Below the pieces are notes generated by a model. The model was given only the letters and a program-made list of their open reading frames with translations, had not been told where the DNA came from and did not search any database. Positions 3,629 through 37,010 of a stretch of DNA of 64,000 bases are shown one piece after another; positions within the stretch are counted from its first letter, which is position 1, and each line of letters opens with the position of its first letter. A program made the translations under genes and the position numbers. The DNA is from Acrocarpospora catenulata (GTDB taxonomy: Bacteria; Actinomycetota; Actinomycetes; Streptosporangiales; Streptosporangiaceae). Location of the stretch: NCBI RefSeq assembly GCF_018476525.1, contig NZ_JAHCST010000006.1, forward strand, positions 124,001 to 188,000, read 5' to 3'.

Positions 3629-3656
3629 CTGACAGCATAGTATACTGACCGTTCCG
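3629..3656. promoter_or_regulatory. bidirectional ACTGA-N4-TCAGT / TATACT element
   Basis: Plus strand: CTGA CAGC ATAG followed directly by TATACT at 3641-3646, reading toward the F420 oxidoreductase. Minus strand: CGGA ACGG TCAG followed by TATACT, reading toward the thiolase. The two copies share the palindromic AGTATACT core. TATACT fits the actinobacterial TANNNT -10 box. See the regulon finding. Confidence 0.6.
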
Positions 3657-3691
3657 AATATTTGATGGCATGGCGGCCCGCCGGAGGCACC

Positions 3692-4696
3692 GTGAAGTTC
3701 GACCTCATGCTGGATCCCACCCCGACCACGGTCGGCGACTCGTGTACCGCGGCCCGCGACGACGGCTTCGACGGCGGCTGGGTGATCGAGACGAGGCACG
3801 ACCCGTTTCTCCTGCTGAACACGGCCGCCACCCGGCGTACCGGGCTCCAGCTCGGCACCGCCGTGGCCGTCGGGTTCGCCCGCAGCCCGATGATCCTCGC
3901 CCAGCTGGCCAACGACCTGCAGATCGCCACCGAGGGCCGGTTCGTGCTCGGCCTGGGGACCCAGGTCAAACCGCACATCGAGCGGCGTTTCTCCATGCCG
4001 TGGGGCCGCCCCGCGCCCCAGATGCGCGAGATGCTCGTCGCGATCCACGCCATCTTCGACGCCTGGGAGACCGGCTCGCGGCTCGACCACAAGGGCGAGT
4101 ACTACACCCACACGCTGATGACGGACGCCTTCTCCCCCGGCCCCAGCCCGTACGGGCGTCCACCGATCTACCTCGGCGCGCTCGGCCCGGCGATGACCGA
4201 ACTGGCCGGGCAACTCGCCGACGGCCTGGTCGTGCACCGGTTCATGTCCGAGCGGTTCCTGCGCGAGGTGACCCTCCCCCGGCTGCGGCGCGGCCTGGCC
4301 GGCCGGGCCCGTCCCCTCGAGCGGCCCTTCCAGGTCGTCTACCCGCCGTTCGCCGCCACCTGCGACGATCCGGAGGGGTCACGACGGCAGCTCGACGCGA
4401 TCCGGAGCCAGGTCGCCTTCTACGCCAGCACGCCGACCTACCGCCCGCTGCTCGACCTGCACGGCTGGGCGGACCTCGGCGACGAACTGCACGCCCTGTC
4501 CCGCGCGCAGGAGTGGCAGGAGATGTCCCGCCGGGTGCCCGACGAGGTCCTGGAGACCGTCGCCGTGGTCGCCCCGGCGGCCGATCTACGGGCCGATCTG
4601 GAGCGACGGTTCGGCGGTCTGATCGACCGATGCATCCTCTTCCCCGAGGAGAAGGCTCCGTCCACCGGCAATCCCCCACGAGAGGCGGACCGATGA
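3692..4696 (+). CDS. LLM-class F420-dependent oxidoreductase
   Basis: The protein is a luciferase-like TIM-barrel enzyme of about 334 residues, beginning VKFDLMLDP, with the GRFVLGLGTQVKPHIERRF and PIYLGALGP segments typical of this class. Such actinobacterial enzymes use cofactor F420 (occasionally FMN) to move hydride between F420 and alcohols, ketones or enoyl-type substrates. GTG at 3692 is chosen because GGAGG lies just upstream; an in-frame ATG at 3665 would add 9 residues and cannot be excluded. The -10-like element at 3641-3646 would place the transcript start near 3653, upstream of both. The stop codon overlaps the start of the next gene (ATGA), so the three following small genes form one operon with translational coupling. 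Confidence 0.88.
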   Translation: MKFDLMLDPTPTTVGDSCTAARDDGFDGGWVIETRHDPFLLLNTAATRRTGLQLGTAVAVGFARSPMILAQLANDLQIATEGRFVLGLGTQVKPHIERRFSMPWGRPAPQMREMLVAIHAIFDAWETGSRLDHKGEYYTHTLMTDAFSPGPSPYGRPPIYLGALGPAMTELAGQLADGLVVHRFMSERFLREVTLPRLRRGLAGRARPLERPFQVVYPPFAATCDDPEGSRRQLDAIRSQVAFYASTPTYRPLLDLHGWADLGDELHALSRAQEWQEMSRRVPDEVLETVAVVAPAADLRADLERRFGGLIDRCILFPEEKAPSTGNPPREADR

Positions 4697-5085
4697 CCAC
4701 CGACACCGAACGACTCAAGACCTTCGTCGGCCTGATGAACTCCGGCAGGTTCGACACCGCGCGCGAGATGGTCGCGGAGAACGTGCGGATCGAAGAGCCG
4801 GACGCGATCCCGTACGGCGGCACGTTCACCGGCCTGGCCGGCTTCGACGAGTTCCGCCGGATCTTCGCCGCGACCTGGCGCCGGTGGAGCGACGGTCCCA
4901 TCTGGTACGCCGAGAACGAGGGCACCGTGGTCAAGCTCAACGTGATCACGGCGGTCAGCCGGGCCACCGGCCAGGAGTACACCACCCCGCTCGCCGAGTT
5001 CTTCACCTTCACCGACGGGAAGATCAGCCGGATCGTCATCTTCTACCAGGACGTGCCCGGCTTCCTGAAGGCCATCGGCTCATGA
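4693..5085 (+). CDS. SnoaL-like NTF2-fold protein
   Basis: A 130-residue protein with the NTF2/SnoaL pattern: an N-terminal helix pair (LMNSGRFDTAREMVAENV), the AIPYGGTFTGLAGFDEFRR segment and a C-terminal strand ending in RIVIFYQD. This fold serves ketosteroid isomerases, polyketide cyclases and small dehydratases. No specific catalytic signature allows a firm reaction to be named. It overlaps by ATGA both the upstream F420 oxidoreductase and the next SnoaL-like gene. A related protein is encoded at 29.6 kb, suggesting that isomerisation or dehydration of a small keto intermediate recurs in this pathway (inference). Confidence 0.8.
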   Translation: MTTDTERLKTFVGLMNSGRFDTAREMVAENVRIEEPDAIPYGGTFTGLAGFDEFRRIFAATWRRWSDGPIWYAENEGTVVKLNVITAVSRATGQEYTTPLAEFFTFTDGKISRIVIFYQDVPGFLKAIGS

Positions 5086-5546
5086 CCGCCGCGCTTCTCG
5101 AGCGGGCCCGCGAGGCCAAGCACCGCTACGTCTGGGCCCTGGACGGACGGGACTGGGCTGGCTACCTGGCCACCCTGGCCGACGAACTGACGGTCGACTT
5201 CCGCAGCCTCGGCTACAAGTCCGTCATGACGCTGCGCGCCCACGACTGGATCGCCCAGGTACGCAAGGTGATGGACGGCTTGGACGCCTCGCACCACGCG
5301 GTGTCCAACCTGGTGGTCGACCAAGGGCCCGGCGGGCTGGCGGTGCGTTCGTACGTCACGGCCCAGCACGTGCTGCGCACCAAGGGTGAGCCGGACCGGC
5401 TCTATCTCCTCGCCGGGTGGTACGACGACCGGATGACCGAGGTCGACGGCGCCTTGAAACTCACCCAGATCGTGTTCAACCAGGTCTGGTCCCAGGGCGA
5501 CCCAACCGTGATGACCGACGCCGTACGGCGCGGGAGGACCTCCTAG
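5082..5546 (+). CDS. SnoaL_4-like NTF2-fold protein
   Basis: A 154-residue protein with the longer SnoaL_4 layout (AKHRYVWALDGRDWAGY at the N-terminus, HHAVSNLVVD in the middle). In this subgroup the HxxxN segment lines the cavity, as in aromatic-ring hydroxylase beta subunits and small dehydratases. The start overlaps the previous stop (ATGA), so it is the third gene of the operon. The gene ends just before a perfect 15-bp-stem hairpin shared with the convergent ferredoxin gene. Substrate unknown; the pairing with an F420 oxidoreductase suggests joint processing of a keto intermediate. Confidence 0.78.
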   Translation: MTAALLERAREAKHRYVWALDGRDWAGYLATLADELTVDFRSLGYKSVMTLRAHDWIAQVRKVMDGLDASHHAVSNLVVDQGPGGLAVRSYVTAQHVLRTKGEPDRLYLLAGWYDDRMTEVDGALKLTQIVFNQVWSQGDPTVMTDAVRRGRTS

Positions 5547-5553
5547 CAAGCCG

Positions 5554-5587
5554 CTTCCGGTCCGGGGCGCGGGCCCCGGACCGGAAG
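5554..5587. terminator. bidirectional hairpin terminator
   Basis: A perfect 15-bp inverted repeat (CTTCCGGTCCGGGGC / GCCCCGGACCGGAAG) with a GCGG loop lies between the convergent SnoaL_4-like gene and ferredoxin gene. There is no U-tract, as is usual for actinobacterial terminators. Confidence 0.75.
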
Positions 5588-5591
5588 GCCG

Positions 5592-5786
5592 CTAGTCCAG
5601 CCGCAACGCCTGCACCGGGCAGACGTTCACGCCGAGTTCGGCGTCCTCCTCCTTGCCCGGCTCGACGGCCACCCCGTCGTCGCCCACCGCGCTGTATCCC
5701 GCGGGGTCGAGCGGGAACAGCGACTCGTCGACCATCGCGCACTGGCCATGGCCCTGGCAGACCTCGCGGTCAACCGATATCAACAC
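5592..5786 (-). CDS. [3Fe-4S]-type ferredoxin, P450 partner
   Basis: A 64-residue ferredoxin with cysteines in CQGHGQC near the N-terminus and NVCPVQAL near the C-terminus. The His-Gly in place of a central cysteine is the usual mark of single-cluster [3Fe-4S] ferredoxins that feed actinobacterial P450s. GTG at 5786 is chosen because GGAAGGAG lies about 7 bases upstream. It follows the P450 gene by 14 bases in the alcohol dehydrogenase-P450-ferredoxin operon, so it almost certainly delivers electrons to that P450. A ferredoxin reductase is not encoded nearby. Confidence 0.92.
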   Translation of the reverse strand: MLISVDREVCQGHGQCAMVDESLFPLDPAGYSAVGDDGVAVEPGKEEDAELGVNVCPVQALRLD

Positions 5787-5800
5787 CGCGGGCTCCTTCC

Positions 5801-7012
5801 CTACGCCGGGGAGACGGTCACCGGCATCCGCTTCACGGGCCGGAAGTAGCAGTCACGCCCGTAGGTCGGTTCGGCGTCGAGACGCACGTCGCTCGTGCGC
5901 CGCAGGAACTCCTCCAGGAGGATGCGGATCTCCAACCGCGCGACGAAGGCACCGAGGCAGAAGTGGTTCCCGAAGCCGAAGGTGAGGTGCGCGTTGGGGC
6001 TGCGCGTCAGGTCGAACGACATCGGGTTCTCGAACTCGTCGGGGTCGAAGTTGGCGGACCCGTACATCATGATCACGGCGTCCCCCTCCTTGATGGTCGA
6101 GCCGTGCAGCTCGATGTCCCGGGCCGCCGTGCGGCGCATGAACACCACCGGCGTGGACCAGCGCAGGATCTCCTCCACCGCAGGATCGGGGACACGGTCG
6201 AGGTGCCGGCGGAGGTAGGCCATCTGGTCGGGGTTGTGGATGAGCCCGTGCATGCCGTGCGACAGGGCGTTGCGGGTCGTCTCGTTGCCGGCGCCGATCA
6301 GCAGGAGCGTGAAGCCCATCAGCTCCTCGTTGGTCAGCCGGTCCCCGTCCACGGCCCTGGTGAGCTTGGACATGATGTCGTCGCCGGGGTCGTCCCTGCG
6401 CAGGTCGGCGAGGTGGAGGCCGTAGTTCCAGAGGCCGTGCACCGCCTCCATCTGGGCTTCGGGGGACGGGGAGTACTCCGGGTCCATCGGCGAGGCGATG
6501 GTGTTGGACCAGTCGAGAACCTTGTACCGGTCCTCCTCCGGGACGCCCATCAGGTTGCAGATCACCTGCATGGGCAGCTCGACGGCGACGTCGTGGACGA
6601 AGTCGAAGGACTTCTTCTCCAGCGCCTTGGTGACGATCTCGGCGGCCAGGTCGCGGAAGGAGTCCTCGAACGTCTTGATCGACCGGCGGGTGAACGCCTG
6701 ACTCACCAGCAGGCGGTTCCGGTGGTGCTCGGGCCCGTCGAGGCTGGTCATGGCCGGTTTGCCGCCGCTCTTGAGGGTCGGGCCCGCCTTCTTCGGGCTG
6801 ACACCCTTGTAGTTGAGGTAGTTCGCCGCGTCGCGGTTGATGTTCCTGACGTCGCTGTGCCGGGTGATGATCCAGCCGGACTCGATCATGCCGGGCTCGC
6901 GGTTGGACTGGAGGAAACACGGCGCGTTCTGCCGCAGGTAGGCGAACTGGTCGTGCGGCAGGCCGTTCTGGTAGATCTCCGGATTGAGGACGTCGATGTC
7001 GGTCAGCTTCAT
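5801..7012 (-). CDS. cytochrome P450
   Basis: A 403-residue soluble bacterial P450. The I-helix oxygen-activation motif is LLIGAGNETT, the K-helix ExxR is EEILRW, and the heme-binding loop is FGFGNHFCLG with Cys352 as thiolate ligand. The layout, including the early DGPEHHRNR C-helix stretch, resembles the actinobacterial CYP125/CYP142/CYP124 group that hydroxylates sterol, terpenoid or methyl-branched chains, but subfamily assignment needs alignment. AAGGAG sits upstream of the ATG. It is the middle gene of the operon alcohol dehydrogenase-P450-ferredoxin, which would convert a terminal methyl to an alcohol and then an aldehyde; the aldehyde dehydrogenase at 9.8 kb would finish the acid. Confidence 0.94.
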   Translation of the reverse strand: MKLTDIDVLNPEIYQNGLPHDQFAYLRQNAPCFLQSNREPGMIESGWIITRHSDVRNINRDAANYLNYKGVSPKKAGPTLKSGGKPAMTSLDGPEHHRNRLLVSQAFTRRSIKTFEDSFRDLAAEIVTKALEKKSFDFVHDVAVELPMQVICNLMGVPEEDRYKVLDWSNTIASPMDPEYSPSPEAQMEAVHGLWNYGLHLADLRRDDPGDDIMSKLTRAVDGDRLTNEELMGFTLLLIGAGNETTRNALSHGMHGLIHNPDQMAYLRRHLDRVPDPAVEEILRWSTPVVFMRRTAARDIELHGSTIKEGDAVIMMYGSANFDPDEFENPMSFDLTRSPNAHLTFGFGNHFCLGAFVARLEIRILLEEFLRRTSDVRLDAEPTYGRDCYFRPVKRMPVTVSPA

Positions 7013-7033
7013 GGACCTTCTCCTTCGGGCACG

Positions 7034-8197
7034 TCAGGTGCGGTGTGCCGAGTCGCTCGGCTGAAGCGTGAAGTCGATGACTGTGCGGGCCACGGCCGCG
7101 CTGTCGAGGTTGTCCACCACGTCGTTGATCTTCGTGAGCGGGACGGTGTTCCCCACGAGTTCGTCCAGGAGAAGATCTCCGCGCCGGTACCGCTCGACGA
7201 TGAAGGGCACCTCGCGTGCGACGTTGGTCGAGCCGCAGCGGCAGCCGATGATCGACTTCTGCTGGCTGACGAACGGCAGGTACATCGGCAGGTCCATGGT
7301 GGCGTTCAGCGGCGCCGCCCCCACCAGGCACACCCGCCCGCCCGGCCGCGTCAGGTCCAGGGCCTGCCGGACCGTCGACGGCAGGCCCACCACCTCGAAC
7401 ACCACGTCGGCGCCGCGTCCCCCGGTCAGCTCGCGGACCGACTCGAGCACCGCGGCCGGATCCGTCCCCCGGACCACGGCGGAGGCGCCGAACCGGCGGG
7501 CGAGCTCCAGCTTCTCCGGCATCAGGTCGACGGCGACGATGTGGGAGGCGCCGGCGATCCGCGCGCCCTGGACCACGTTGAGGCCCACGCCGCCGCAGCC
7601 GAGCACGGCCACCACGTCGCCCGGCCGGACGGCGGCGGTGTTGAGGGCGGCGCCGATGCCGGTGAGCACCCCGCACCCGATGAGGCACGCGCTGGTCATC
7701 GGAATGTCAGCGGGCAGCCGCACGACCGTGGCGGCGTCGACGACGACGACGGAGGAGAACGTGCCGACGCCGGCGAGCTGGGCCACCGGATCGCCGGCGC
7801 GGGTGAGCCGCGGCGGGGCCGACGGATCGGCGGTCGGCTTGGTCTCGCACAACTCGGGCTGCGACCGCACGCAGTAGAAGCACGAGCCGCACTGGGTCAG
7901 CCAGGTCAGGATCACCGGATCGCCCGGGGACAGCCCGGTCACGCCGGATCCGACCAGGTCGACCACACCGGCGCCCTCGTGGCCGAGCACGAGTGGCGGC
8001 GCGAAGGGGATGGCGCCGGTGAGGATCGACTGATCGGTGTGACAGACGCCGGTGGCGGCGAGTCGTACGCGCACCTCGTGCGCGAGCGGTGCGCGGACGG
8101 CCAGGTCGAGGAGTTCGAGCGGGCCGCCGGATTCGGTGAACACCGCCGCTTCGGCGATGACCGTCGAGGCCCCGGTGCCCGTACCAGCTCTGCTCAT
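7034..8197 (-). CDS. zinc-dependent alcohol dehydrogenase (class III-like MDR)
   Basis: A 387-residue medium-chain dehydrogenase/reductase. Catalytic zinc ligands are in GVCHTD and GHEGAG; the structural zinc site is the four-cysteine block CGSCFYCVRSQPELC; the cofactor Rossmann motif is VLGCGGVG. Members oxidise primary alcohols with NAD+, some with mycothiol or factor-dependent chemistry. The stop lies 21 bases before the P450 start, so the two are co-transcribed. The ATG at 8197 lacks a strong ribosome site, so the exact start is uncertain by about a dozen residues. Likely role: oxidation of the alcohol formed by the neighbouring P450. Confidence 0.92.
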   Translation of the reverse strand: MSRAGTGTGASTVIAEAAVFTESGGPLELLDLAVRAPLAHEVRVRLAATGVCHTDQSILTGAIPFAPPLVLGHEGAGVVDLVGSGVTGLSPGDPVILTWLTQCGSCFYCVRSQPELCETKPTADPSAPPRLTRAGDPVAQLAGVGTFSSVVVVDAATVVRLPADIPMTSACLIGCGVLTGIGAALNTAAVRPGDVVAVLGCGGVGLNVVQGARIAGASHIVAVDLMPEKLELARRFGASAVVRGTDPAAVLESVRELTGGRGADVVFEVVGLPSTVRQALDLTRPGGRVCLVGAAPLNATMDLPMYLPFVSQQKSIIGCRCGSTNVAREVPFIVERYRRGDLLLDELVGNTVPLTKINDVVDNLDSAAVARTVIDFTLQPSDSAHRT

Positions 8198-8210
8198 AGA
8201 GCACTTCTAG

Positions 8211-8230
8211 CATGTATACGATACGTTCGG
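8211..8230 (-). promoter_or_regulatory. weaker copy of the CTGA-N4-TCAG / TATACT element
   Basis: On the minus strand, toward the alcohol dehydrogenase-P450-ferredoxin operon: CCGA ACGT ATCG followed by TATACA. The half-sites are degenerate but spacing and the -10-like box agree with the other copies. On the plus side, 8241-8251 reads CGATCGTTCGT, identical to part of the TetR operators near 52-53 kb. Confidence 0.4.
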
Positions 8231-8281
8231 TAGACTTCGGCGATCGTTCGTAACACGGCGGTGACATCCCTGGGAGGCGCC

Positions 8282-9364: not shown

Positions 9365-9801
9365 CCGAAAGCGGAAAGCGCCGCACCGGCTGGGACACCC
9401 GGTTCGCCGACAAGGCGGACCACATCGCCCGGTACCTCGCGACGGACGGCGAGGACGGCTACCTCTGGTCGGAGACGCCCACCCTGCTGCTGACCACCCG
9501 CGGGCGGCGCTCCGGCCAGGAGCGCACGGTCGCCCTGATCTTCGGCGAGGACGACGGCCGCTACATCCTGGTCGCGTCCCAGGGGGGAGCGCCTCGCCAC
9601 CCCAACTGGTACCTCAACATCCTCGCGGACCCCGTCGTAACGCTACAGGTGAAGGCCGACCGCTTCACCGCCCGTGCCCGGACGGCCACCGGAGAAGAAC
9701 GCGAGCGCCTGTGGAAGCAGATGGTCCCGCTCTGGGAGTACGACGTGTACGCGACGCGGACCGACCGGGTCATTCCGGTCGTGGTGCTGGAACGGCAGTA
9801 A
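9361..9801 (+). CDS. deazaflavin (F420)-dependent nitroreductase-family protein
   Basis: A 146-residue split-beta-barrel protein of the Ddn/FDOR-A type. The diagnostic TLLLTTRGRRSG near residue 40 and PNWYLNI near residue 80 bind F420 and close the barrel. Family members reduce quinones, enones or nitro compounds with reduced F420. The start overlaps the stop of the phosphotransferase gene (ATGA), and the aldehyde dehydrogenase follows after 20 bases. With two luciferase-like F420 enzymes nearby, this shows that F420 redox chemistry is a theme of the cluster. Confidence 0.9.
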   Translation: MTESGKRRTGWDTRFADKADHIARYLATDGEDGYLWSETPTLLLTTRGRRSGQERTVALIFGEDDGRYILVASQGGAPRHPNWYLNILADPVVTLQVKADRFTARARTATGEERERLWKQMVPLWEYDVYATRTDRVIPVVVLERQ

Positions 9802-9821
9802 CCGAACGGGATACGAGGGTC

Positions 9822-11276: not shown

Positions 11277-11292
11277 CGGCCTGCCACAAAAC

Positions 11293-11329
11293 GGACGTCC
11301 CCGATGACGAGTGGTCATCGGGGACGTCC
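11293..11329. terminator. bidirectional hairpin terminator
   Basis: A perfect 16-bp stem (GGACGTCCCCGATGAC and its complement) with a GAGTG loop lies between the convergent aldehyde dehydrogenase and ABC binding-protein genes. Confidence 0.8.
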
Positions 11330-11342
11330 GGCTCGGAGGGGG

Positions 11343-12557: not shown

Positions 12558-12621
12558 CAGGTCCTCCCGCTTCCTGTAGGCATCGCCGGGCACGGCCCAC
12601 GATGTACAAGAGCTAGCGAGT

Positions 12622-12640
12622 TAGTTACTGAATGGTCAGT
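12622..12640 (-). promoter_or_regulatory. ACTGA-N4-TCAGT element upstream of the binding-protein gene
   Basis: Plus-strand ACTGAATGGTCAGT at 12627-12640 is a perfect ACTGA-N4-TCAGT dyad. Read toward the minus-strand gene it is CTGA CCAT TCAG followed by TAACTA at the -10-like position. Confidence 0.6.
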
Positions 12641-12791
12641 GTCCATAGGTACGGCGGTCGCGTCAAGGGTTTCGGCGTGACCGTCGCGAAGAGGCGCAGT
12701 GTGGGGAGTTCTGGGCCCAGCAGCCTGGCGAGCTACGCGAGATCAGTGGGAATTTCGGCCTCTCTGCACGAAATAGGAGACTCAAAGTTCC

Positions 12792-12809
12792 CTGACTGCT
12801 TAGTATAGT
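12792..12809 (+). promoter_or_regulatory. CTGA-N4-TTAG / TATAGT element upstream of the MFS gene
   Basis: CTGA CTGC TTAG followed directly by TATAGT, about 65 bases before the MFS start. The 12594-12875 intergenic stretch holds this site and the divergent one at 12622 but no gene that I can support. Confidence 0.55.
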
Positions 12810-12875
12810 TAAGCGTGAGGTCATGCTGAAGGCCGGATCGCGGTCCTGGGCGACAACCATCGGTGGGGGTGCGGG

Positions 12876-14063
12876 ATGCGGCCGGACGTGGGACCTGTCG
12901 TGCCGCTCGGTGAACCCGAGCCGTCGGTGCGGCCACGGGGGCGCGACCTGCTACTTCCGGCGGCAGGCCCGCTGGCGTGCTTCCTCCCGCTCTACCTGAC
13001 GGCGTCACTCGCGCTCAGCATGGGGCGCGAGATGAACCTGGACGCCGGCCGCCTCGGAGTCGTGACGAGCGCGTACTTCGCGGCCGGGGCGGTGGCGACG
13101 ATACCCGGCGGATGGCTGACCCCGCGCATCGGCTACCCGCGGATGATCCAGGCCGGCATCCTCCTGGCCGCCGGCAGCCTGCTCGCCATCGCCTTCGCCG
13201 TCCACTCGTGGGTCGGCCTGGTGATCGCCGTGGCCGTGGCCGGCCTGGCGCAGAGTCTGGTGGAACCGGCCGCCGGCGCCTACATCGGCGCGGCCGTCGA
13301 CCGTCGGCACCAGGGCTTCGCCTTCGGCGTCAAGCTCGCCGCCCTCCCCCTCTCCTCTCTGCTCTGCGGAATCGCCGTCCCCCTGGTCGCGGCGCCGCTG
13401 GGCTGGCGTGCGGCCTTCGTCGTGGCAGCCGCGCTGATCCTGCCGACCGTGCTGGTGACACCGTCCGTACGGCCCCAGGCAGCCCGGCGGACCACCGGCC
13501 GCGCGCCGGGCGATGTCACCCTGGTCCTCCTGCTCGGGATCGGCGCGGGCCTGGCCTTCGCCGCGGCGAACAGCTTCTCGGCGTTCGTCGTGAGCTCGGC
13601 GGGCGCCAACGGGATCCCGGAGTCGACGGCCGGGCTGCTGGTCGCGCTGGGCGGCATCGTCGGCGTGGTCAGCCGGATCTCCCTCGGCGTCCGGGCCGAC
13701 CGGGCACGACGCGGCCCGTTGCTCATCGCCCGGAACATCCTCCTCGCCTCGGTGGTGACGTTCGCCGTGCTGGGCCTGGGGTCCACCTCGACATTCGCGG
13801 TGGCGATCGTGATCGCCTTCGTGACCATCTGGGGCTGGTCGCCCGTCTACCAGATGGCGTCGGTGAGCGCGTTCGCCCCGGAACCGGACCGGCCGCTGCG
13901 GATCGTCACCGCGATGATCTTCGTGGGCTGCATCGCCGGCCCGGTGGGATTCGGCTGGATCGTCCGGACCGGCTCGTTCGGGGCCGCCTGGTTCGCGGCG
14001 GCCGCGGTGACGGTGCTCGCGGCGGTGCTCTTCACCGTCGCGGCCCGGGTCACGGACCGCTGA
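12876..14063 (+). CDS. MFS transporter
   Basis: A 395-residue protein with about 12 hydrophobic segments, split by a charged central loop near residues 200-215 (RPQAARRTTGRAPGD). The first half has the PGGWLTPRIGYPRM loop resembling MFS motif A (GxLaDrxGrk), and the second half the RISLGVRADRARRGP loop at the equivalent place. It would lie in the cytoplasmic membrane and move a small organic anion or related metabolite by proton coupling or export a product. It is a single-gene unit under its own copy of the shared promoter element and converges on the DUF1214 gene with only 6 bases between stops. Confidence 0.85.
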   Translation: MRPDVGPVVPLGEPEPSVRPRGRDLLLPAAGPLACFLPLYLTASLALSMGREMNLDAGRLGVVTSAYFAAGAVATIPGGWLTPRIGYPRMIQAGILLAAGSLLAIAFAVHSWVGLVIAVAVAGLAQSLVEPAAGAYIGAAVDRRHQGFAFGVKLAALPLSSLLCGIAVPLVAAPLGWRAAFVVAAALILPTVLVTPSVRPQAARRTTGRAPGDVTLVLLLGIGAGLAFAAANSFSAFVVSSAGANGIPESTAGLLVALGGIVGVVSRISLGVRADRARRGPLLIARNILLASVVTFAVLGLGSTSTFAVAIVIAFVTIWGWSPVYQMASVSAFAPEPDRPLRIVTAMIFVGCIAGPVGFGWIVRTGSFGAAWFAAAAVTVLAAVLFTVAARVTDR

Positions 14064-14069
14064 GCGCCA

Positions 14070-16093: not shown

Positions 16094-16246
16094 GGTGCCG
16101 CTCTCCATGGTCGTTGGGAGTCAGGCCCGAGGCGGTTCCCCGAGCCTCTTCAGCCGACGTGAGATGACGACGCGCCGCGGCGTCGTCGAGCATGAGTGGG
16201 CGATCTCGACCGGGGTCGCGATGCCGATGGGAGGGCCTTCCACCTC

Positions 16247-16270
16247 TGCGCACTGTGCGTTTAGTATACA
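16247..16270. promoter_or_regulatory. bidirectional CTGA-N4-TCAG-type element
   Basis: Plus strand: CTGT GCGT TTAG followed by TATACA toward the enoyl-CoA hydratase. Minus strand: CTAA ACGC ACAG followed by TGCGCA toward the sulfotransferase operon. It is one of several sites used in both directions. Confidence 0.5.
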
Positions 16271-16318
16271 CGGAGCGGGGTGCCTGGCCAGGGCCACGCA
16301 CAGCGAGGAAGGGGCAGC

Positions 16319-18253: not shown

Positions 18254-18313
18254 TTCGCCTCCGGCGGGGTTCGGAATCCAGAGGCAGCGGCACCCCTGGC
18301 CGGTCTCCTGGGT

Positions 18314-18331
18314 TGTATCCTGGACGGTCGG
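18314..18331 (-). promoter_or_regulatory. CTGA-N4-TCAG-type element upstream of the nitronate monooxygenase gene
   Basis: Read on the minus strand: CCGA CCGT CCAG followed by GATACA, about 60 bases upstream of the start codon. Confidence 0.45.
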
Positions 18332-18370
18332 TATATGTCAAGCTGTCCTAGTCCCACACAGACAGATACA

Positions 18371-18388
18371 CTAACCATTCAGACTACT
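18371..18388 (+). promoter_or_regulatory. CTAA-N4-TCAG element upstream of the molybdopterin oxidoreductase
   Basis: CTAA CCAT TCAG followed by ACTACTTA, 22 bases before the start codon. Its left part is the reverse complement of the dyad at 12627. Confidence 0.5.
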
Positions 18389-18409
18389 TATCGGCCGTGA
18401 GGACCTCAC

Positions 18410-21276: not shown

Positions 21277-21297
21277 TGATGGGTCGGATGACATATT

Positions 21298-21315
21298 CTG
21301 AATGGACAGTATACT
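21298..21315 (+). promoter_or_regulatory. CTGA-N4-ACAG / TATACT element
   Basis: CTGA ATGG ACAG followed directly by TATACT, one of the best copies. It lies 150 bases before the acyl-CoA ligase start, giving a long leader that contains a small open frame. Confidence 0.6.
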
Positions 21316-21358
21316 AACGCGCATCCGCAGGCTGCGGGACGGCAGGGAAGGAGCGACC

Positions 21359-21457
21359 TTGACAGTCACTGTCCAGTCGGAATACAAAGGCCCCCCGCGG
21401 GGACTTCCGGCAAGCCCCGACCGGAACATCCCTGCTGCAAGTCGAAAGACGAGGTGA
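21359..21457 (+). CDS. possible 32-residue leader peptide
   Basis: A TTG at 21359 follows GGAAGGAG by 5 bases and opens a 32-codon frame that stops 7 bases before the acyl-CoA ligase start. The product begins MTVTVQSEYKG and ends SRKTR; it matches nothing I recognise. Codons 1-5 overlap the perfect palindrome GACAGTCACTGTC (21361-21373). The good ribosome site is the main evidence. It could couple translation to the ligase or be chance. Confidence 0.35.
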   Translation: MTVTVQSEYKGPPRGLPASPDRNIPAASRKTR

Positions 21458-21464
21458 CGTCGCC

Positions 21465-24232: not shown

Positions 24233-24268
24233 ATCACTCCGATGTGGGGTTCGGCGGCCGCCCTTGCT

Positions 24269-25125: not shown

Positions 25126-25126
25126 G

Positions 25127-26974: not shown

Positions 26975-27840
26975 CACACCACCCTTTGCTGTCGGCTGCC
27001 GAACAGTCCGGTCGGTCTCAGGAGCAGCACCAACAGGAGAACCGCGAACAGGGCCACGGCGGAGAAACTGGCGCCGAGGTAGAGGGCCGAGACCGACTCG
27101 ACGATGCCCACCGAGAAGCCGCCGACGAGGGCGCCGGGGAACGACCCGAACCCGCCGATCGCCAGCGCGAGGAAGGACTTGAGGGTGATGGCGGTGCCGA
27201 GCGTGACGACGGCGTAGGTGGTGGGGCCGACCGCCGGCCCGACAGCGGCGCCGATCGCGCCGGCCGCCGCCGTGGTCGCCAGCGACATGCGGCGGACGTT
27301 GATCCCCCGCAGCGCGGCGGCGACGCGGTCCTCGGACATCGCGAGGCAGGACAGGCCGGAGAGGGTGAACCGCGACCACCCCCACAGTCCGAGGAAGGCC
27401 AGCAGGGCCACGGCGATCAGGGCCAGGCCGTCGACCGTGACGCGGCCGCCGACCAGGTCGACGACCGTCGGCGAGACCAGGTCCTTCACCTGGAACGGCT
27501 GGTCGCCCCAGATGAGGATGGCAACGCCTTCGATGACGATCGAGGCGCCGACCGTGGTGACGAGTTCACCGTGGGAACCCCGGCCCTGGACGGTCCTGAT
27601 CGCCAGCAGGTTGACCAGGAGGCCGACCAGGAGGCCGAACCCGGCGCCGAGCAGGATGACGACCGCCGGCGGCAGGTCGCCGGTGACGCCGAACTGGTAG
27701 GCGAGCATGGTCCCGAGCATCACGATCGCGCCCTGCGCGAAGTTGAACGCTCCGGCGCCGACGAGCGTCAGGTTGTAGCCGAGGGCGACGATGACGTAGA
27801 TCGATCCGATGACGAGCCCACCGAGGAGGGCGGTCTGCAT
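26974..27840 (-). CDS. livH: Liv-type ABC transporter permease
   Basis: A 288-residue LivH-like permease, very hydrophobic, with about 8 spans. GLVIGSIYVIVALGYNLTL at the N-terminus and the FAQGAIVMLG segment are characteristic, as is the EDRVAAALRGINVRRM cytoplasmic loop that contacts the ATPases. The ATG at 27840 follows a purine-rich site and lies inside the 3' end of the upstream ligase gene, which reads on in another frame for 73 bases. The permease would form the translocation pore with the LivM domain encoded immediately downstream. Confidence 0.92.
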   Translation of the reverse strand: MQTALLGGLVIGSIYVIVALGYNLTLVGAGAFNFAQGAIVMLGTMLAYQFGVTGDLPPAVVILLGAGFGLLVGLLVNLLAIRTVQGRGSHGELVTTVGASIVIEGVAILIWGDQPFQVKDLVSPTVVDLVGGRVTVDGLALIAVALLAFLGLWGWSRFTLSGLSCLAMSEDRVAAALRGINVRRMSLATTAAAGAIGAAVGPAVGPTTYAVVTLGTAITLKSFLALAIGGFGSFPGALVGGFSVGIVESVSALYLGASFSAVALFAVLLLVLLLRPTGLFGSRQQRVV

Positions 27841-29992: not shown

Positions 29993-30023
29993 TGTTCCTG
30001 CCTGTCGGTCCGTTCGGTGGTGG

Positions 30024-31169: not shown

Positions 31170-31194
31170 CGGGCACTCCCTGTCCGCACATCTT

Positions 31195-31212
31195 AGTGCA
31201 CTGATCGGTCAG
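31195..31212 (-). promoter_or_regulatory. CTGA-N4-TCAG / TGCACT element
   Basis: Read toward the acyl-CoA dehydrogenase: CTGA CCGA TCAG followed by TGCACT, about 25 bases from the start codon. The dyad is perfect. Confidence 0.6.
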
Positions 31213-31305
31213 ACTACTTAGCTGAGGACGGGTCGGCAAGGGTCCGTTAACGCGAACTGAGCGGACCTGCGGGCGGGCCGCACGGCCGGGCGATTGATTA
31301 AGTTA

Positions 31306-31323
31306 CTGTATGATTAGTATACT
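31306..31323 (+). promoter_or_regulatory. CTGT-N4-TTAG / TATACT element
   Basis: CTGT ATGA TTAG followed directly by TATACT. It ends 9 bases before an ATG at 31333 and 27 bases before the preferred ATG at 31351. Confidence 0.55.
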
Positions 31324-31350
31324 AGCGTCATTATGCATGAAGGGTGGAGG

Positions 31351-32424
31351 ATGGCACACTCCCCGCAGGTCGAGCAGCCGAGCGACGGCGTGGCCCACGT
31401 GGCCACAGCCGCCTGTGACGACTGGACGGCGCCCGGCGCCCATGAGGTCAGCGACGGCGTCCACCGCATCCCTCTCCCACTGCCGCAGGACGGCCTGCGG
31501 GCCGTCAACGTCTACGCACTCGAAGCGTCTGACGGGCTGCTGCTGGTCGACGGCGGCTGGGCGCTACAGGCGGCACGGGACGCGCTGGAGAAGGCGGTGC
31601 GGTCGCTCGGCCACAGCCTGCGCGACATCTCGCGCTTCGTCGTCACCCACGCCCACCGCGACCACTACACGCAGGCCGTGGCGATCCGGCGCGAATTCGG
31701 GAGCAGGGTGGCCCTCGGCGCCCTGGAGCGTGAATCGCTGGAGCAGGCGATGGCCCCGGGCCCGGGCGGCAGGTCGATGCTGGCCCTGCTGCGCCGGGCC
31801 GACGCCGGCGAGTTGGCCGAGGACCTGCTGGCGGCCGGATTCGGCCGCGCCATGGAGCCGCGCGCCTGGGAGCTGCCGGATCAGTGGCTGACCGGAGGCG
31901 AGCGCATCCCGGTCGACGCGCAGCGCCACCTCGAAGCGATCCACACGCCGGGCCACACGCGGGGGCACATCGTCTTCGCCGACCGTCACCGCGACCTGCT
32001 CTTCACCGGCGACCACGTGCTCCCCCACATCACGCCGTCGATCGGTTTCGAGGCCGCCCAGGCCCAGCTGCCCCTGCAGGACTTCCTCGACTCCCTCGAA
32101 CGGGTCCGCGAACTGCCCGACATGGCGATGCTCCCAGCCCACGGCGCGCCGGGACCGAGCGTTCACCGGCGCGCCGCCGAACTGCTGGAGCATCACGAGA
32201 ACAGGCTGGCGCTGTGCCGGGCCGAAGTGCGTCCCACCGGCACCACGGGCTACGACGTCGCCAGGGCGCTGGCCTGGACGAGCCGGGGCCGACGTTTCCG
32301 GGAACTCGATCCGCTCAACCAGATGCTCGCCGTCTCGGAGACCCTCGCCCACCTCGACGTACTGGTCTCCCGCGGCGTCCTCTCCTGTGAGGAACGGGCC
32401 GATGTCCGCCGCTACGCCTGCTGA
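31351..32424 (+). CDS. metallo-beta-lactamase-fold hydrolase
   Basis: A protein of about 357 residues. The two-metal motif THAHRDH lies near residues 99-105 (HxHxDH), followed by the TPGHTRGH histidine and FTGDHVLPH aspartate, giving a complete dinuclear site. The C-terminal helix-rich region (DVARALAWTSRGRRF) resembles LACTB2-like/hydroxyacyl-thioester hydrolases. Such enzymes often hydrolyse CoA or glutathione thioesters, or lactones. ATG 31351 is preferred because AAGGG lies 6 bases upstream; ATG 31333 would be nearly leaderless. A lactone or CoA-ester hydrolase would fit a pathway with a Baeyer-Villiger enzyme (inference). Confidence 0.85.
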   Translation: MAHSPQVEQPSDGVAHVATAACDDWTAPGAHEVSDGVHRIPLPLPQDGLRAVNVYALEASDGLLLVDGGWALQAARDALEKAVRSLGHSLRDISRFVVTHAHRDHYTQAVAIRREFGSRVALGALERESLEQAMAPGPGGRSMLALLRRADAGELAEDLLAAGFGRAMEPRAWELPDQWLTGGERIPVDAQRHLEAIHTPGHTRGHIVFADRHRDLLFTGDHVLPHITPSIGFEAAQAQLPLQDFLDSLERVRELPDMAMLPAHGAPGPSVHRRAAELLEHHENRLALCRAEVRPTGTTGYDVARALAWTSRGRRFRELDPLNQMLAVSETLAHLDVLVSRGVLSCEERADVRRYAC

Positions 32425-32440
32425 CGGGCCAGCTTAATTA

Positions 32441-32458
32441 CTAATCACTCAGTTTATT
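32441..32458 (+). promoter_or_regulatory. CTAA-N4-TCAG / TTTATT element upstream of DoxX-like gene
   Basis: CTAA TCAC TCAG followed by TTTATT, located between the metallo-hydrolase stop and the DoxX-like start. Confidence 0.5.
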
Positions 32459-32528
32459 TGTCGTCTCCAGGTTGATGTTCACGGTGAGCCGTCTCGCCAA
32501 CTTGGCTGAACCACGGTGGAGGAGTCAG

Positions 32529-33026
32529 GTGGAAACCGACCTCGCGGCGTTCATCCTGCGACTGGCGCTCGGGCCGATGCTCGTCGCGCACGGCTGGAAC
32601 AAACTCTTCGGATCGGGGGGATTGACCGGCACACAGGGCTGGTTCGAGGCGCTCGGCCTGCGCCCGGCGTGGCTGCACGCCCGGATGGCGGCGACCGTGG
32701 AGATCGGTGCCGGCGTGTTCCTGACGCTTGGCCTGCTGACCGGGCTTGACGCCACGGCGTACGTGGCCCTGATGGTCGTCGCCACCCTCACCGACCACCG
32801 CGGCAAGGGCTACTTCGTCTTCAAGGGCGGCGGCGAGTACACGATCCTCATCGCCATGGCGTCGGTCGGTGTCGCCGCGCTGGGTCCCGGCCGCTGGTCG
32901 CTCGACCACCTGCTCGGACTCGACCTGTACGGCTGGCGGTGGGCCGCCATCGCCGCGATCGGCGGAACGGTGGCCGCGGCGGGTCTCCTGGCGACCTCGT
33001 ACCGGCCGACGGAGACCAGACCCTGA
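32529..33026 (+). CDS. DoxX-family membrane protein
   Basis: A protein of about 165 residues with four hydrophobic spans and the DoxX marks FILRLALGPMLVAHGWNKLF and the central GLLTGLDATAYVALM. DoxX-like proteins are small membrane proteins associated with quinone or thiosulfate redox and redox stress; function here is not known. GTG 32529 is chosen for GGTGGAGGAG upstream; an ATG at 32475 would add 18 residues with no clear ribosome site. It has its own copy of the shared promoter element and ends at a strong hairpin. Confidence 0.82.
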   Translation: METDLAAFILRLALGPMLVAHGWNKLFGSGGLTGTQGWFEALGLRPAWLHARMAATVEIGAGVFLTLGLLTGLDATAYVALMVVATLTDHRGKGYFVFKGGGEYTILIAMASVGVAALGPGRWSLDHLLGLDLYGWRWAAIAAIGGTVAAAGLLATSYRPTETRP

Positions 33027-33035
33027 CCTGCCCCA

Positions 33036-33071
33036 GGGATGGCGGGCCATGCGTGCATGGCCCGCCATCCC
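33036..33071. terminator. bidirectional hairpin terminator
   Basis: A perfect 16-bp stem (GGGATGGCGGGCCATG and its complement) with a CGTG loop, followed by TTT on the plus strand, lies between the convergent DoxX-like and amidohydrolase genes. Confidence 0.8.
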
Positions 33072-33085
33072 TTTCCTCGAAGAGA

Positions 33086-34324
33086 TCAGCCCCGGGAGGT
33101 GTCGATGTTGTAGAGCCTCGCGGCGTTGCCGCTGAGCACGGCCTCACGCTTGGCGAAGTCCACCTTCTCCAGGGTCGCCCCGATCTGCTTGAGCGGCTCG
33201 GGGTAGAGGCACGTGGGGTGCGGGAAGTCGGTCTCGAACATGACCTTGTCCCAGCCGACGAAGTCGATGTCGCGCAGCAGCGTCTGGTTCTCGAACCAGA
33301 AGCAGGAGTAGATCTGCCGGTGGAAGTACTCCGAGGGCTTCATCGACAGCCGCACGTTGGCCTCGTCGGCCTGGTAGTCGAGCGCCTCCAGCAGGAAGGG
33401 CATCCACCCGATGCCGCTCTCGACCGAGACGAACTTGAGGTTCGGGTGCCGCTCCAGGATGCCGGAGAAGATCAGGTTGGCGACCACCCGGGCGTTGCCG
33501 AGGTAGAGCATCGCCGAGCCGATGGCCAGGCGCTTCGATTCCTCGAAGCTGGGCCACGGCGAGTCGCCGTACCACTGGACACCGGTGTCGCTGGCTCCCA
33601 CGTGGAAGTTGATCGGCATGCCGAGCGACTCGCACACCTCCCACAGCGGCTCCCAGTGCAGGTCGCTCAGGTCGGGGAGATCCTGGTGCTGCGGGTCGGA
33701 GGTGATGTTGACACCCTTGAGGCCCTGGGCGTGCACCCGCTGGGTCTCCTTGACCGCGGCCTCGATGTCCCACCAAGGGATCATCGCCATGCCGTGCAGG
33801 CGGCCGTTGGAGTTCTCGTAGAGCTCGATCATCGTGTCGTTCCAGATCTGGGCGCAGAGCAGGCGGAGCTGGCGGTCCTCGATCGCCTTGAACGCCTGGC
33901 CGCCGAAACCGACCACGTTGGGGTAGATGATCTGGCCCCAGATGCCGACCTCGTCCATCAGGTCGAGCCGGGGCTCCAGGAAGGAGGCCGCCGGGGAGAC
34001 CTCGGTGAGCGGCCAGTGGGTGAAGCCGGGCCCCTTGTGTTTCACGTTCTGGTGGTTGATGACCGACCCGCCTCCGGCGCGGCCCATCACGTTGTCGCCG
34101 ACGACCCAGATCCACATGTCGGCCGACTCCATCCGGCCCTTGTGGGGGTTGTAGATCTCCCGTCCGGCCGAGGACACCACCCGGGGCACCTGGTCCTTGT
34201 ACTTCTCCGGTGCCAGGCGGGTCCACAGGTCGGCGGGCTCCGTCAGGTGCGTGTCAGCGTCGATCACCTTGATGCCCTTGATCGACTCAGGGGTCCGGCC
34301 GCTGTAGTTCAGCACTTCGGTCAT
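33086..34324 (-). CDS. amidohydrolase family 2 (TIM-barrel metal hydrolase/decarboxylase)
   Basis: A 412-residue protein of the amidohydrolase_2 family. The N-terminal metal motif is DADTHLTEP, the barrel histidine is in PINFHVGAS, and the C-terminal aspartate is in FETDFPHP. The family contains hydrolases and non-oxidative decarboxylases (gamma-resorcylate, ACMS type); actinobacterial relatives are common in steroid and aromatic clusters with unsettled roles. GAGAG precedes the ATG. It is the second gene of an operon whose first gene is the double CoA-transferase 53 bases upstream, so it likely acts on the CoA-transferase product or substrate. Confidence 0.88.
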   Translation of the reverse strand: MTEVLNYSGRTPESIKGIKVIDADTHLTEPADLWTRLAPEKYKDQVPRVVSSAGREIYNPHKGRMESADMWIWVVGDNVMGRAGGGSVINHQNVKHKGPGFTHWPLTEVSPAASFLEPRLDLMDEVGIWGQIIYPNVVGFGGQAFKAIEDRQLRLLCAQIWNDTMIELYENSNGRLHGMAMIPWWDIEAAVKETQRVHAQGLKGVNITSDPQHQDLPDLSDLHWEPLWEVCESLGMPINFHVGASDTGVQWYGDSPWPSFEESKRLAIGSAMLYLGNARVVANLIFSGILERHPNLKFVSVESGIGWMPFLLEALDYQADEANVRLSMKPSEYFHRQIYSCFWFENQTLLRDIDFVGWDKVMFETDFPHPTCLYPEPLKQIGATLEKVDFAKREAVLSGNAARLYNIDTSRG

Positions 34325-34377
34325 GGTTCTCTCTCGTTCGCAGCGGAATGGTGGTGTGGTCGTTCGGGTGGCCTGGC

Positions 34378-36933
34378 TCAGGTCACGCCGTCCGCGCGCA
34401 GCGCGGCGATCTCGGCGGTGTCCAGCCCCAGCAGGGTGCCGAGCACGTGGTCGGTGTCCTCTCCGTAGTTCGGGCCGGAACGGTTGATCAGACCGCCGAT
34501 GTGGGCGGGGGTCTTCTCGAAGTGCACAGGCAGCTCCTTGACCGGCCACCGGCCGAGTTCCGTCTGGTCCAGCTCGACCAGCCAGTTCAGGTGCCGGAGC
34601 TGGGGGTCGGTCTCGTACCGGTCCTGGGCGGTCTGGCAGACGCCGGCCGGGACGCCGTTCTGCTGGAGGGTCGCCATGAGCTCGTACGCGTCCCATCCGG
34701 CGGTGGCCTCGCCGACCAGCCGGTCGAGCAGGTCCTGGTGCTTCAGGCGGGCGGGCAGGTCCGCGAACCGCGCGTCCTCCAGCAGCGCTTGGACGCTGAT
34801 CACCTTGGCGAGCGACTCCCACTGGGTCTGGGTGAAGCACCCGATCGCGATCCACCGGTCGTCACCGGCCGCCCGGTAGGCGCCGTGCGGCGCGGCCGGT
34901 TTGTACGGCGAGCGGTTGCCGTACCGGGACCAGCGGCGGCCGTTGGCACTGTGGTCCAGGATCGCGGTGCCGGTCAGGTAGAGCCCGGTCTCGACCTGGG
35001 AGGCGTCGATGTAACAGCCTTCCCCGGTGCGCTGCCTGCGGTAGAGGGCGGCCATCATGGCGGTGCTCATGTTGTACGCGCCGAACCAGTCAAGGTAGGA
35101 GTAGCCGATTCCGGCGGGCGCGAACGGCTCGGGCAGGCCGGACATGTCGCTGAGACCGGAGAACGCCTGCGCGGTGGGGCCGTAACTGCGCATGGTGCTG
35201 TAGGAGCCCCGCTGTCCCATGCCGGACTGCTGCACGTAGACGATCGACGGGTTGATCTTGCGAAGTTCGGCGTAGCCGAGGCCCATCCGCTCCATGGTGC
35301 CGGGCGAGAACCCCTCGATCACCACGTCCGCGCGGGCGATGAGCTGTTTGAGGATCTCCATCCCGCGCGGCGTCTTCAGGTTGAGGCTCAGGCCGAGTTT
35401 GCCGGAGTTGATCTCCATGAAGGAGCCTGAGCGGTTGGGGCCCGGAATCTGGGGGTTGGGGATGGGACCGGTGGCCGCGTCCCGTTCCGCGCGTCCGCCG
35501 AGCGGGGGGAAGGCGGTGCCGAAGCGCATGCCGTCGTAGCGGGACGAGTGCTCGACCTTGATCACCTCGGCGCCCAGGGCGGTGAAGAACCGCCCGGCCC
35601 CGGCACTGGCCAGCAACCAGGCGAGGTCGAGCACCCGGACGCCCCGCAGCGCGAACGGCCGGTCACCGGTCTCGGTGCGGTTCTCCGGCCAGGACCGGGG
35701 CTGGAGCTCCGAGCCGAGGACCTCCTGGGTGTGCTCCCCCAGGAGCGGCGGACGCGTGCCGGTGCTCCACGGAACCTCGTCGCAGACCCACTTCGCTCCG
35801 ACGTAGGTGAAGCTGCGCCCGTGCTCGGGATGGTCGACCTCGACGAACGTGCCGCGCTGCGCCCAGTGGTCGTCGGCGAGGTTCTCCTCGGGCCGCCGGA
35901 TGGGCGCCCACGGCAGACCGGCCCGCTGCCCCTCGCGCCAGATCTCCCGATCGTTCAGGAACCTTCCGACGAAGGCGGCGAAGACGGCCGCGAGGTGTTT
36001 GCGGACGGGCGGCGAGTTGCGGTAGGCACCGTCCTCGTACTTCTCCTCGGCCAGATCATCGGCCATGCCGTGGCGTTCCAGCATGGCGACGGTCTCCCGC
36101 CAGGTGGTCGAGCGACCGGGCAGGTAGGTGTTGTACGGCAGCGTCCAGCGGCCGTCCTTGGTGGCCGCCAGTACGGGGGCGCCGGGCGTGGGGAGGGAGT
36201 GCCGGCAGGTCTGGCGCCGGTGCGTCTGCCGCTGGAAGATCCAGTTGGGCAGGTCGGTCTCGGTGTTCTTGCTGACCGACTCGTGCACCGAGGTCTCCAC
36301 CCGCTGGCCCTCCCCCGTGCGGTCGCGGTGCCACAACGCCGCCATGACGGAGGTCGCCATCATCTCGCCGGTGATGTGGTAGGCCTGCCACATCTGCGGG
36401 GCCACCGGGGGCAGGTCGTAGTGGCCGTCGGGCTCGGGGTCGTACCCGCAGTTCATCATCACCCCGCCCAGCGCCAGGTGGATCAGGTCGCTGCCGGAGA
36501 AGTGGGCCCACGGCCCGTCGTCGCCGAACGCGGTGATCCGTGCGTGCACCAGACCAGGGTTCAGCTCCGCCAGGCGCCGCGCGTCGAACCCGATGCCCGC
36601 GAGGTAGCCGCGGGGCCGTGTCTCCAGGAGCACGTCGCTCGAGGCGAGCAGCCCGGCCAGGGCGGCCTGTCCGGCGTCGGTGTCCAGATCCAGTACGACG
36701 GAGCGTTTGCCCAGGTTGTAGTGCCAGAAATGAAGGCTGCGGTCGGGGCCTTCCACGTCCTGGTAGAACGGGCCGATCGACCGGGTGGTCTCGCCGCCGA
36801 CAGGCTCCACCTTGACGACGTCGGCGCCGAGGCCCGCCAGCACCCGGCCGCAGTACTCCCCGAGTTCGTCGGCCAGTTCGACCACACGGATCCCGGCGAG
36901 AAACCCGGCCTTCTCATTCGATGACTTCGACAT
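34378..36933 (-). CDS. tandem class III CoA-transferase (two CaiB/BaiF domains)
   Basis: An 851-residue protein, twice the usual family length. Domain 1 starts at GIRVVELADELGEYCGRVLA (about residue 14) and domain 2 at GVRVLDLAWLLASAGAGRFF (about residue 440). Each has the N-terminal CoA-binding Rossmann-like part and the linked small domain. At the position of the family's nucleophilic aspartate I read Glu in both halves (SVHES and SQVET), common in double-domain relatives but a point to test. It may transfer CoA between acids without ATP, with one half structural. The start lies near GGGGAG. It is first in an operon with the amidohydrolase. Confidence 0.9.
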   Translation of the reverse strand: MSKSSNEKAGFLAGIRVVELADELGEYCGRVLAGLGADVVKVEPVGGETTRSIGPFYQDVEGPDRSLHFWHYNLGKRSVVLDLDTDAGQAALAGLLASSDVLLETRPRGYLAGIGFDARRLAELNPGLVHARITAFGDDGPWAHFSGSDLIHLALGGVMMNCGYDPEPDGHYDLPPVAPQMWQAYHITGEMMATSVMAALWHRDRTGEGQRVETSVHESVSKNTETDLPNWIFQRQTHRRQTCRHSLPTPGAPVLAATKDGRWTLPYNTYLPGRSTTWRETVAMLERHGMADDLAEEKYEDGAYRNSPPVRKHLAAVFAAFVGRFLNDREIWREGQRAGLPWAPIRRPEENLADDHWAQRGTFVEVDHPEHGRSFTYVGAKWVCDEVPWSTGTRPPLLGEHTQEVLGSELQPRSWPENRTETGDRPFALRGVRVLDLAWLLASAGAGRFFTALGAEVIKVEHSSRYDGMRFGTAFPPLGGRAERDAATGPIPNPQIPGPNRSGSFMEINSGKLGLSLNLKTPRGMEILKQLIARADVVIEGFSPGTMERMGLGYAELRKINPSIVYVQQSGMGQRGSYSTMRSYGPTAQAFSGLSDMSGLPEPFAPAGIGYSYLDWFGAYNMSTAMMAALYRRQRTGEGCYIDASQVETGLYLTGTAILDHSANGRRWSRYGNRSPYKPAAPHGAYRAAGDDRWIAIGCFTQTQWESLAKVISVQALLEDARFADLPARLKHQDLLDRLVGEATAGWDAYELMATLQQNGVPAGVCQTAQDRYETDPQLRHLNWLVELDQTELGRWPVKELPVHFEKTPAHIGGLINRSGPNYGEDTDHVLGTLLGLDTAEIAALRADGVT

Positions 36934-36986
36934 GCACTCCCCAGGGATCCGCCCAGTGCCAACAGCCGCCAGACAACCTTGCCCAT

Positions 36987-37010
36987 AGTTCACTGACTGA
37001 ATAGTATACT
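36987..37010. promoter_or_regulatory. bidirectional CTGA-N4-TCAG-type element
   Basis: Plus strand: CTGA CTGA ATAG followed by TATACT toward the OB-fold gene. Minus strand: CTAT TCAG TCAG followed by TGAACT toward the CoA-transferase. It is the right-most copy in the window. Confidence 0.55.

Follow-up and report, generated by a model that had tools for sequence, protein, structure and literature searches.

The described regulators nearest to the putative operator system of Acrocarpospora catenulata analysed here are TetR proteins. KstR2 and AibR belong to lipid metabolism and are single-unit TetR homodimers with other operators, and KstR2 answers to a coenzyme A (CoA) thioester. AibR has been solved with isovaleryl-CoA (PDB title). 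Mce3R of Mycobacterium tuberculosis (PDB 9b7y) is described as the first double TetR with a structure, and 204 double TetR members are predicted in actinomycetes (PMC11667970). For PfmR (TTHB023) of Thermus thermophilus, made of single TetR units, an early consensus TACCGACCGNTNGGTN is quoted, with sites at fatty-acid genes (PMC7022988). The A. catenulata element, ACTGA-N4-TCAGT extended on one side by ATAC, recurs across a catabolic cluster that extends into a 64,000-nucleotide stretch (the window, bases 124001-188000 of the 293-kb contig C138 in the 10.29-Mb genome G000; negative coordinates lie to its left). It shares the ACYGA-N4-TNRGT geometry of the early PfmR consensus, whereas neither PfmR consensus has the TATAC arm. 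As judged from sequence and a structural model, the element is probably an operator through which about 20 promoters in 50 kb form a local catabolic regulon, with a 425-residue double TetR as the operator's likeliest reader, possibly together with a paralogue. The roughly 20 promoters of one cluster and the two (G000) or three (its relative A. pleiomorpha) paralogous double TetRs are unlike Mce3R. No report of the operator, of such a dense double-TetR regulon or of several paralogues per cluster was found among the matches listed for the motif strings, for Acrocarpospora with TetR and for double TetRs, in a literature whose subscription papers were mostly outside reach.

An element confined to a catabolic cluster

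A weight matrix of 21 positions was trained on 17 sites of the nearest relative found with the cluster, Acrocarpospora pleiomorpha NBRC 16267 (G127), alone and then applied to G000, the two clusters being orthologous. At a threshold of 16 bits it yields 20 centres between -13.4 and 37.1 kb, a region of 50.5 kb, none in the 53.5 kb of flanks fetched beside it and none in 320.7 kb of further own-genome DNA (the rest of C138, in 11 stretches, and 7 stretches of other contigs), a conservative background since these stretches were picked for holding pattern hits. The initial annotation of the window, in which the sites face the catabolic transcription units and none of the genes right of 37.1 kb, is borne out on this confinement in the 104 kb (window plus 20 kb on each side) and 320.7 kb scanned. 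Its 12 places correspond to 13 of the 20 centres (3634, 3650, 8224, 12633, 12797, 16258, 18325, 18376, 21303, 31206, 31311, 32446 and 36998), each of at least 19 bits; the other seven are 21374 (16.4 bits, in the window) and -13287, -13231, -11887, -9810, -348 and -235, all six to its left, with -11781 narrowly under the threshold at 15.9 bits. The right limit of the range it gave, 3.6 to 37.0 kb, thus stands, but the left start moves to near -13.3 kb.

Pattern counts agree with the matrix. With at most 2 mismatches, ACTGANNNNTCAGTATACT has 7 matches in the whole genome, all 7 in the cluster region; with at most 3 there are 25, of which 17 lie in C138:112-161 kb and 8 elsewhere (the surroundings of these eight were scored with the matrix), and the reversed control of the pattern has 24 genome-wide. 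The 104 kb hold 17 matches at this stringency, against 0.15 per Markov shuffle. For G127, 15 of 28 such matches fall in C4:164-228 kb, and the control pattern has 25.

The predicted operators in the window are as follows, with conservation counted against G127:

3625 to 3660, strand unassigned: two overlapping operators, centres 3634 (+), 24.0 bits, and 3650 (-), 29.6 bits, between divergent thiolase (-) and luciferase-like oxidoreductase (+) genes; 22/23 positions conserved at 3650
8212 to 8234, - strand: operator, centre 8224, Zn-alcohol dehydrogenase (-)/kinase-like (+) gap, 22.4 bits, 23/23 conserved
12624 to 12646, + strand: operator, centre 12633, upstream of an ATP-binding cassette (ABC) solute-binding protein gene (-), 26.8 bits, 23/23 conserved
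12788 to 12810, + strand: operator, centre 12797, upstream of a major facilitator superfamily (MFS) transporter gene (+), 23.5 bits, 19/23 conserved
16249 to 16271, + strand: operator, centre 16258, sulfotransferase (-)/enoyl-CoA-hydratase-like (+) gap, 23.4 bits, 19/23 conserved
18313 to 18335, - strand: operator, centre 18325, upstream of a nitronate-monooxygenase-like gene (-), 19.5 bits, no partner mapped
18364 to 18389, strand unassigned: operator, centre 18376, upstream of a molybdopterin oxidoreductase gene (+), 21.5 bits, no partner mapped
21294 to 21316, + strand: operator, centre 21303, upstream of an acyl-CoA ligase gene (+), 30.8 bits, 21/23 conserved
21365 to 21387, + strand: weak operator, centre 21374, in the promoter region of 21303, 16.4 bits, no partner mapped, unlisted in the initial annotation
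31197 to 31219, + strand: operator, centre 31206, upstream of acyl-CoA dehydrogenase/ligase/ABC genes (-), 24.9 bits, 23/23 conserved
31302 to 31324, + strand: operator, centre 31311, upstream of a metallo-beta-lactamase-fold gene (+), 34.1 bits, 21/23 conserved
32437 to 32459, + strand: operator, centre 32446, upstream of a DoxX-family gene (+), 19.0 bits, no partner mapped
36989 to 37011, + strand: operator, centre 36998, double CoA-transferase (-)/ChsH2-like OB-fold and thiolase-like (+) gap, 32.3 bits, 23/23 conserved

The last of these is the right edge of the regulon, and the weaker sites are those at 8211-8230, 18314-18331 and 32441-32458. The cluster encodes dehydrogenases, hydratases, thiolases, ligases, CoA-transferases, oxygenases and transporters. 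One of eight cluster proteins passed the cut-off, as an F420-dependent LLM class oxidoreductase (TIGR03617, among the matches listed), as did one of ten proteins in another search, a thiolase (PRK07851 and TIGR01930), and neither match names a substrate for the cluster.

The sites follow the layout of the genes. With gaps of at least 40 bp and matches of up to 5 mismatches counted, sites occur in all nine divergent gaps between -13.4 and 37.1 kb, in none of the six convergent ones and in three of six tandem gaps (-13377, 21277 and 32425). Of the site-free tandem gaps, those at 1506 and 34325 fit genes inside operons; at 26975 our gene-calling script, whose starts are uncertain, missed a permease-type gene at about 26975-27767 that it called in G127 (171964-171098). 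To the right of the cluster, the divergent gap 40343-40466 and the convergent gap 39594-39775 hold no sites. For 21 of the 22 gene starts listed, an operator centre lies no more than 150 bp from the called start; the 22 include -9791, an operon-internal start. The MFS gene called at 13020 is farther off, at 223 bp, and has an alternative start at 12876, at a distance of 79 bp. Paired operators are spaced 51-164 bp centre to centre in G000 (the overlapping 3634/3650 aside) and 57-72 bp in G127, with no helical phasing seen in the centres of either genome. The two operators at 3634/3650 have in common the octamer AGTATACT, its own reverse complement, which could serve both diverging genes.

The putative operator itself is a 23-bp, two-fold pseudo-symmetric block. 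A second matrix, of 28 sites from both genomes, gives the core ACTGA-N4-TCAGT, then ATAC, then T or A, usually with a G just right of the centre of the spacer; here the core is nearly symmetric and the arms are asymmetric, the right arm being favoured because the picking pattern combined a symmetric core with TATACT on the right. Set beside the asymmetric, palindrome-free operator of about 25 bp of the Mce3R type, the block (-10..+13) fits in length and has one longer arm, but its core is palindromic; both symmetry of the core and presence of a right arm were built into the pattern that selected the sites. Between orthologous G000 and G127 promoters, 325/345 positions (94%) are kept within -10..+13 and 1250/1755 (71%) outside it in a gapped comparison of 15 pairs. 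This took in -11781 and omitted -11887, 3634, 18325, 18376, 21374 and 32446, which have no mapped partner or overlap another site; it is fairer than an ungapped comparison of 14 pairs, in which the block edges are fairly sharp too and spacer position +2 is free. Since conservation is higher within the block than outside it, TATAC belongs to the conserved block, and is not simply the separate -10 box beside the dyad that had been proposed. Some sites have the exact hexamer TATACT, and others have TATACA, TATAGT, GACTACT, TTTATT or TGTCCA.

Together these results rule out a chance or repeat origin of the sites through shuffles, genome-wide pattern counts and matrix confinement; that the sites lack a regulatory role, being repeats or low-complexity matches that arose by chance, has next to no probability, given also their place in divergent and not convergent gaps, a block conserved against more diverged flanks and recurrence in another family (below).

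A -10 role for the arm is nevertheless in keeping with its polarity, because TATAC faces the downstream gene at all nine distinct non-divergent sites (G000 -13287, -13231, -9810, 21303, 21374 and 32446; G127 227856, 193973 and 213429), although at G127 227856 and 193973 this orientation outscores the other by just about 3 bits. At the divergent sites -11887, -11781, -348, 12633 and 31206, each near one start, the arm points away from the nearest gene, and the arm directions at divergent sites are compatible with a -10 region on either side of the core. The same polarity speaks for an alternative-sigma promoter, the other option of the initial annotation, or more broadly for a promoter class in which TATACT is the -10 hexamer and CTGA-N4-TCAG an upstream determinant recognised by such a sigma factor or by an activator. 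Of the letters of the hexamer, however, the final T, which in -10 boxes is as a rule a strong position, is one of the less conserved (T 0.61, A 0.31); several sites lack TATACT, several lie 22-40 bp from a start codon with the TATAC arm away from that gene, and both half-sites are conserved. We therefore consider a promoter class very improbable, and an alternative sigma factor is further disfavoured because both strands are used and the element is paired with a double TetR in another family.

Other candidate elements were also seen. Right of the regulon, an A+T-rich stretch at 60436-60466 holds the palindrome AACTTTAAATAAAGTT (15.6 and 12.2 bits), which may be another regulator's site, and ACCGACCAGTCGGTATGCT, identical in all five genus members searched (G000 C99:6631, G127 C18, G027 C41, G106 C47 and G079 C36), is perhaps a different, conserved TetR-like operator.

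Double TetR proteins linked to the cluster

The initial annotation had placed the regulator gene outside the window; the candidate gene does lie outside it, but is linked to the cluster. The gene for a 425-residue single-chain double TetR (L002:11931-13205:+, window -8069 to -6795) stands 7 kb to the left of the window, and that for a paralogue, A2, with 51% identity to this protein, 17 kb to the left (L002:2394-3617:-); with double TetR genes found in the left flank, absence of a candidate regulator from the locus is rejected. The 425-residue protein is the product of the only DNA-binding gene recognised between the outermost sites, where no single TetR was recognised among the called genes (families come from domain searches for most genes there, the rest being judged from first and last residues), and two operators lie in the promoter that heads its operon.

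Both G000 proteins contain two TetR_N and two TetR_C_24 stretches, that is, two complete TetR units per chain, and the five double TetR proteins align end to end. An AlphaFold2 model of the A. pleiomorpha orthologue, built from three sequences, has a pLDDT (predicted local distance difference test) of 80.9 and a pTM (predicted template modelling score) of 0.75, and matches 9b7y end to end; by this prediction the single chain would fold as an intramolecular pseudo-dimer. The protein is a member of the double TetRs, of which Mce3R, 18-19% identical to the proteins here, is the solved example. Its first half matches KstR2 and AibR in fold and sequence, and its second half has PfmR as best PDB match (3vpr, E 1.1e-18); in contrast to PfmR as a single-unit homodimer, both linked regulators are double.

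There are two paralogous double TetRs within the cluster in G000 and three in G127. Those at L002:2394-3617 and at G127 C4:192.6-193.9 kb (L056) share 51-55% identity with the main one, and the recognition helices of the paralogues are almost the same; the latter gene stands among regulon genes and has operators both left and right of it. The helix-turn-helix (HTH) units of the two G000 proteins are identical at 38/53 and 36/50 positions, the ligand parts at 62/125 and 55/125.

Recurrence in other genomes

Orthologues at E <= 1e-60 occur in 2 of 297 family genomes. In the order (345 genomes) a profile search at E <= 1e-35 matched 11, of which 8 show one half only; the full-length double TetRs found there are those of G000, G127 and G695, the last from another family, and each has an operator near its gene. 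In a class sample of 394 genomes no other full-length match was among those listed, with 4 candidates scored per genome.

The G695 protein is 34% identical to the 425-residue protein. Within 7 kb of its gene, two divergent promoters carry sites of 24.7 bits (14950) and 27.2 bits (18685), their neighbours being by eye a ligase-like gene and thiolase-like and transporter-like genes; a third site, of 13.1 bits (11650), stands just before the double TetR's own start, and no further centre reaches 10 bits in 60 kb. None of 100 shuffles of this sequence reaches 20 bits. CTGNNNNNTCAGTATAC has two exact matches in the 6.2-Mb G695 genome, at the 14950 and 18685 sites, and one with a single mismatch. 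The two sites keep TCAGTATAC exactly and vary on the left, and the recognition helix is 9/10 identical in G695 for HTH1 and 5/10 for HTH2.

Within the genus, G027, G079 and G106 have neither a double TetR nor an operator cluster: they hold 36 scattered matches of at most 3 mismatches (control 79), at most two of them close together. In G127, counterparts of the G000 genes for the luciferase-like and nitronate-monooxygenase-like proteins (77.6% and 79.1% DNA identity), either relocated or paralogous, occupy different positions, yet have operators. About 16 kb of unrelated-looking genes in mid-regulon (G127 C4:174.6-190.4 kb; L055, L056), not in the G000 cluster, contain no operator of at least 14 bits.

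Several points weigh against the 425-residue protein as reader. A2 has no operator directly upstream, and it (like B2 in G127) could itself read the element, alone or alongside the 425-residue protein; the regulator may also be encoded elsewhere in the 10.3-Mb genome or have been missed by the gene calls. The two Acrocarpospora clusters are not independent, so that G695 is one independent case, in which the site at the gene's own start is weak and the reversed CTGNNNNNTCAGTATAC has 2 matches of at most one mismatch against 3 for the pattern, itself chosen after the sites were seen. The Mce3R operator is described as non-palindromic (PMC11667970), whereas the core here is two-fold, and a later in vitro PfmR consensus, CTGACCGATCGGTCAG, differs in spacing from the early one (PMC7022988). 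Moreover, similar palindromes adjoin single TetRs too: an 18-base pattern occurs with at most one mismatch in 19 of 297 family genomes, 17 of them with no double TetR orthologue, and in one of these 17, G185, a 205-residue single TetR adjoins an exact match.

These last findings, like the nearly symmetric core, would suit an ordinary single-chain TetR encoded elsewhere that binds the palindrome as a homodimer, leaving the linked double TetRs to control something else. Such an arrangement seems unlikely to us, as the full-length double TetRs found in the order each have an operator near the gene, none of the genes called from the first to the last site was recognised as a single TetR, and the operator arms are asymmetric, with the reservation on the right arm made above. 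What tracks the double TetR here is the array of sites in a cluster, not a lone site. At the G185 locus (L102 10000-11000), two near-perfect palindromes 152 bp apart adjoin the single TetR gene, which by eye is divergent from an acyl-CoA-dehydrogenase-like, short-chain-dehydrogenase-like (SDR-like) and ligase-like operon. Loci of single TetRs related to the first half (L088-L095 and L104) were uninformative for assigning arms to HTHs, with two matches of at least 9 bits, the best 13.9, and no HTH near HTH1 by eye.

A proposed mode of regulation

A TetR-like repressor occluding the promoters, as first suggested, remains the best-supported reading of a set confined to the cluster, though not simply one acting beside a separate -10 box. 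Under control by the double TetR we infer binding, repression, a -10 role and an inducer in the following way. As in Mce3R, each half-site would be bound by one of the two different HTH units within a single chain, and the TATAC arm would double as the -10 region. If it does, the bound repressor would therefore cover the promoter, and the pseudo-dimer over the -10 region would block polymerase. A metabolite of the pathway, probably an acyl-CoA thioester by analogy with related TetRs, would release the repressor, which would switch on the whole cluster and the repressor's own operon.

More tentatively, the two (G000) or three (G127) paralogues, with their diverged ligand domains, might share the roughly 20 operators, the polar operator giving each HTH its own arm, HTH1 reading TCAGTATAC and HTH2 the looser ACTGA side. 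This possibility, for which we would give somewhat less than even chances, is suggested because HTH identity exceeds identity in the ligand parts and the G695 sites keep TCAGTATAC but vary on the left. If true, several different metabolites would be read at the same promoters.

The double TetR subfamily is small, and this locus provides, across two species, five proteins along with about 20 natural operators. The DNA-reading rule of a pseudo-dimer with two unlike HTHs is therefore directly testable here, and the operator network provides a handle on the inducer and the substrate of an uncharacterised 50-kb catabolic cluster.

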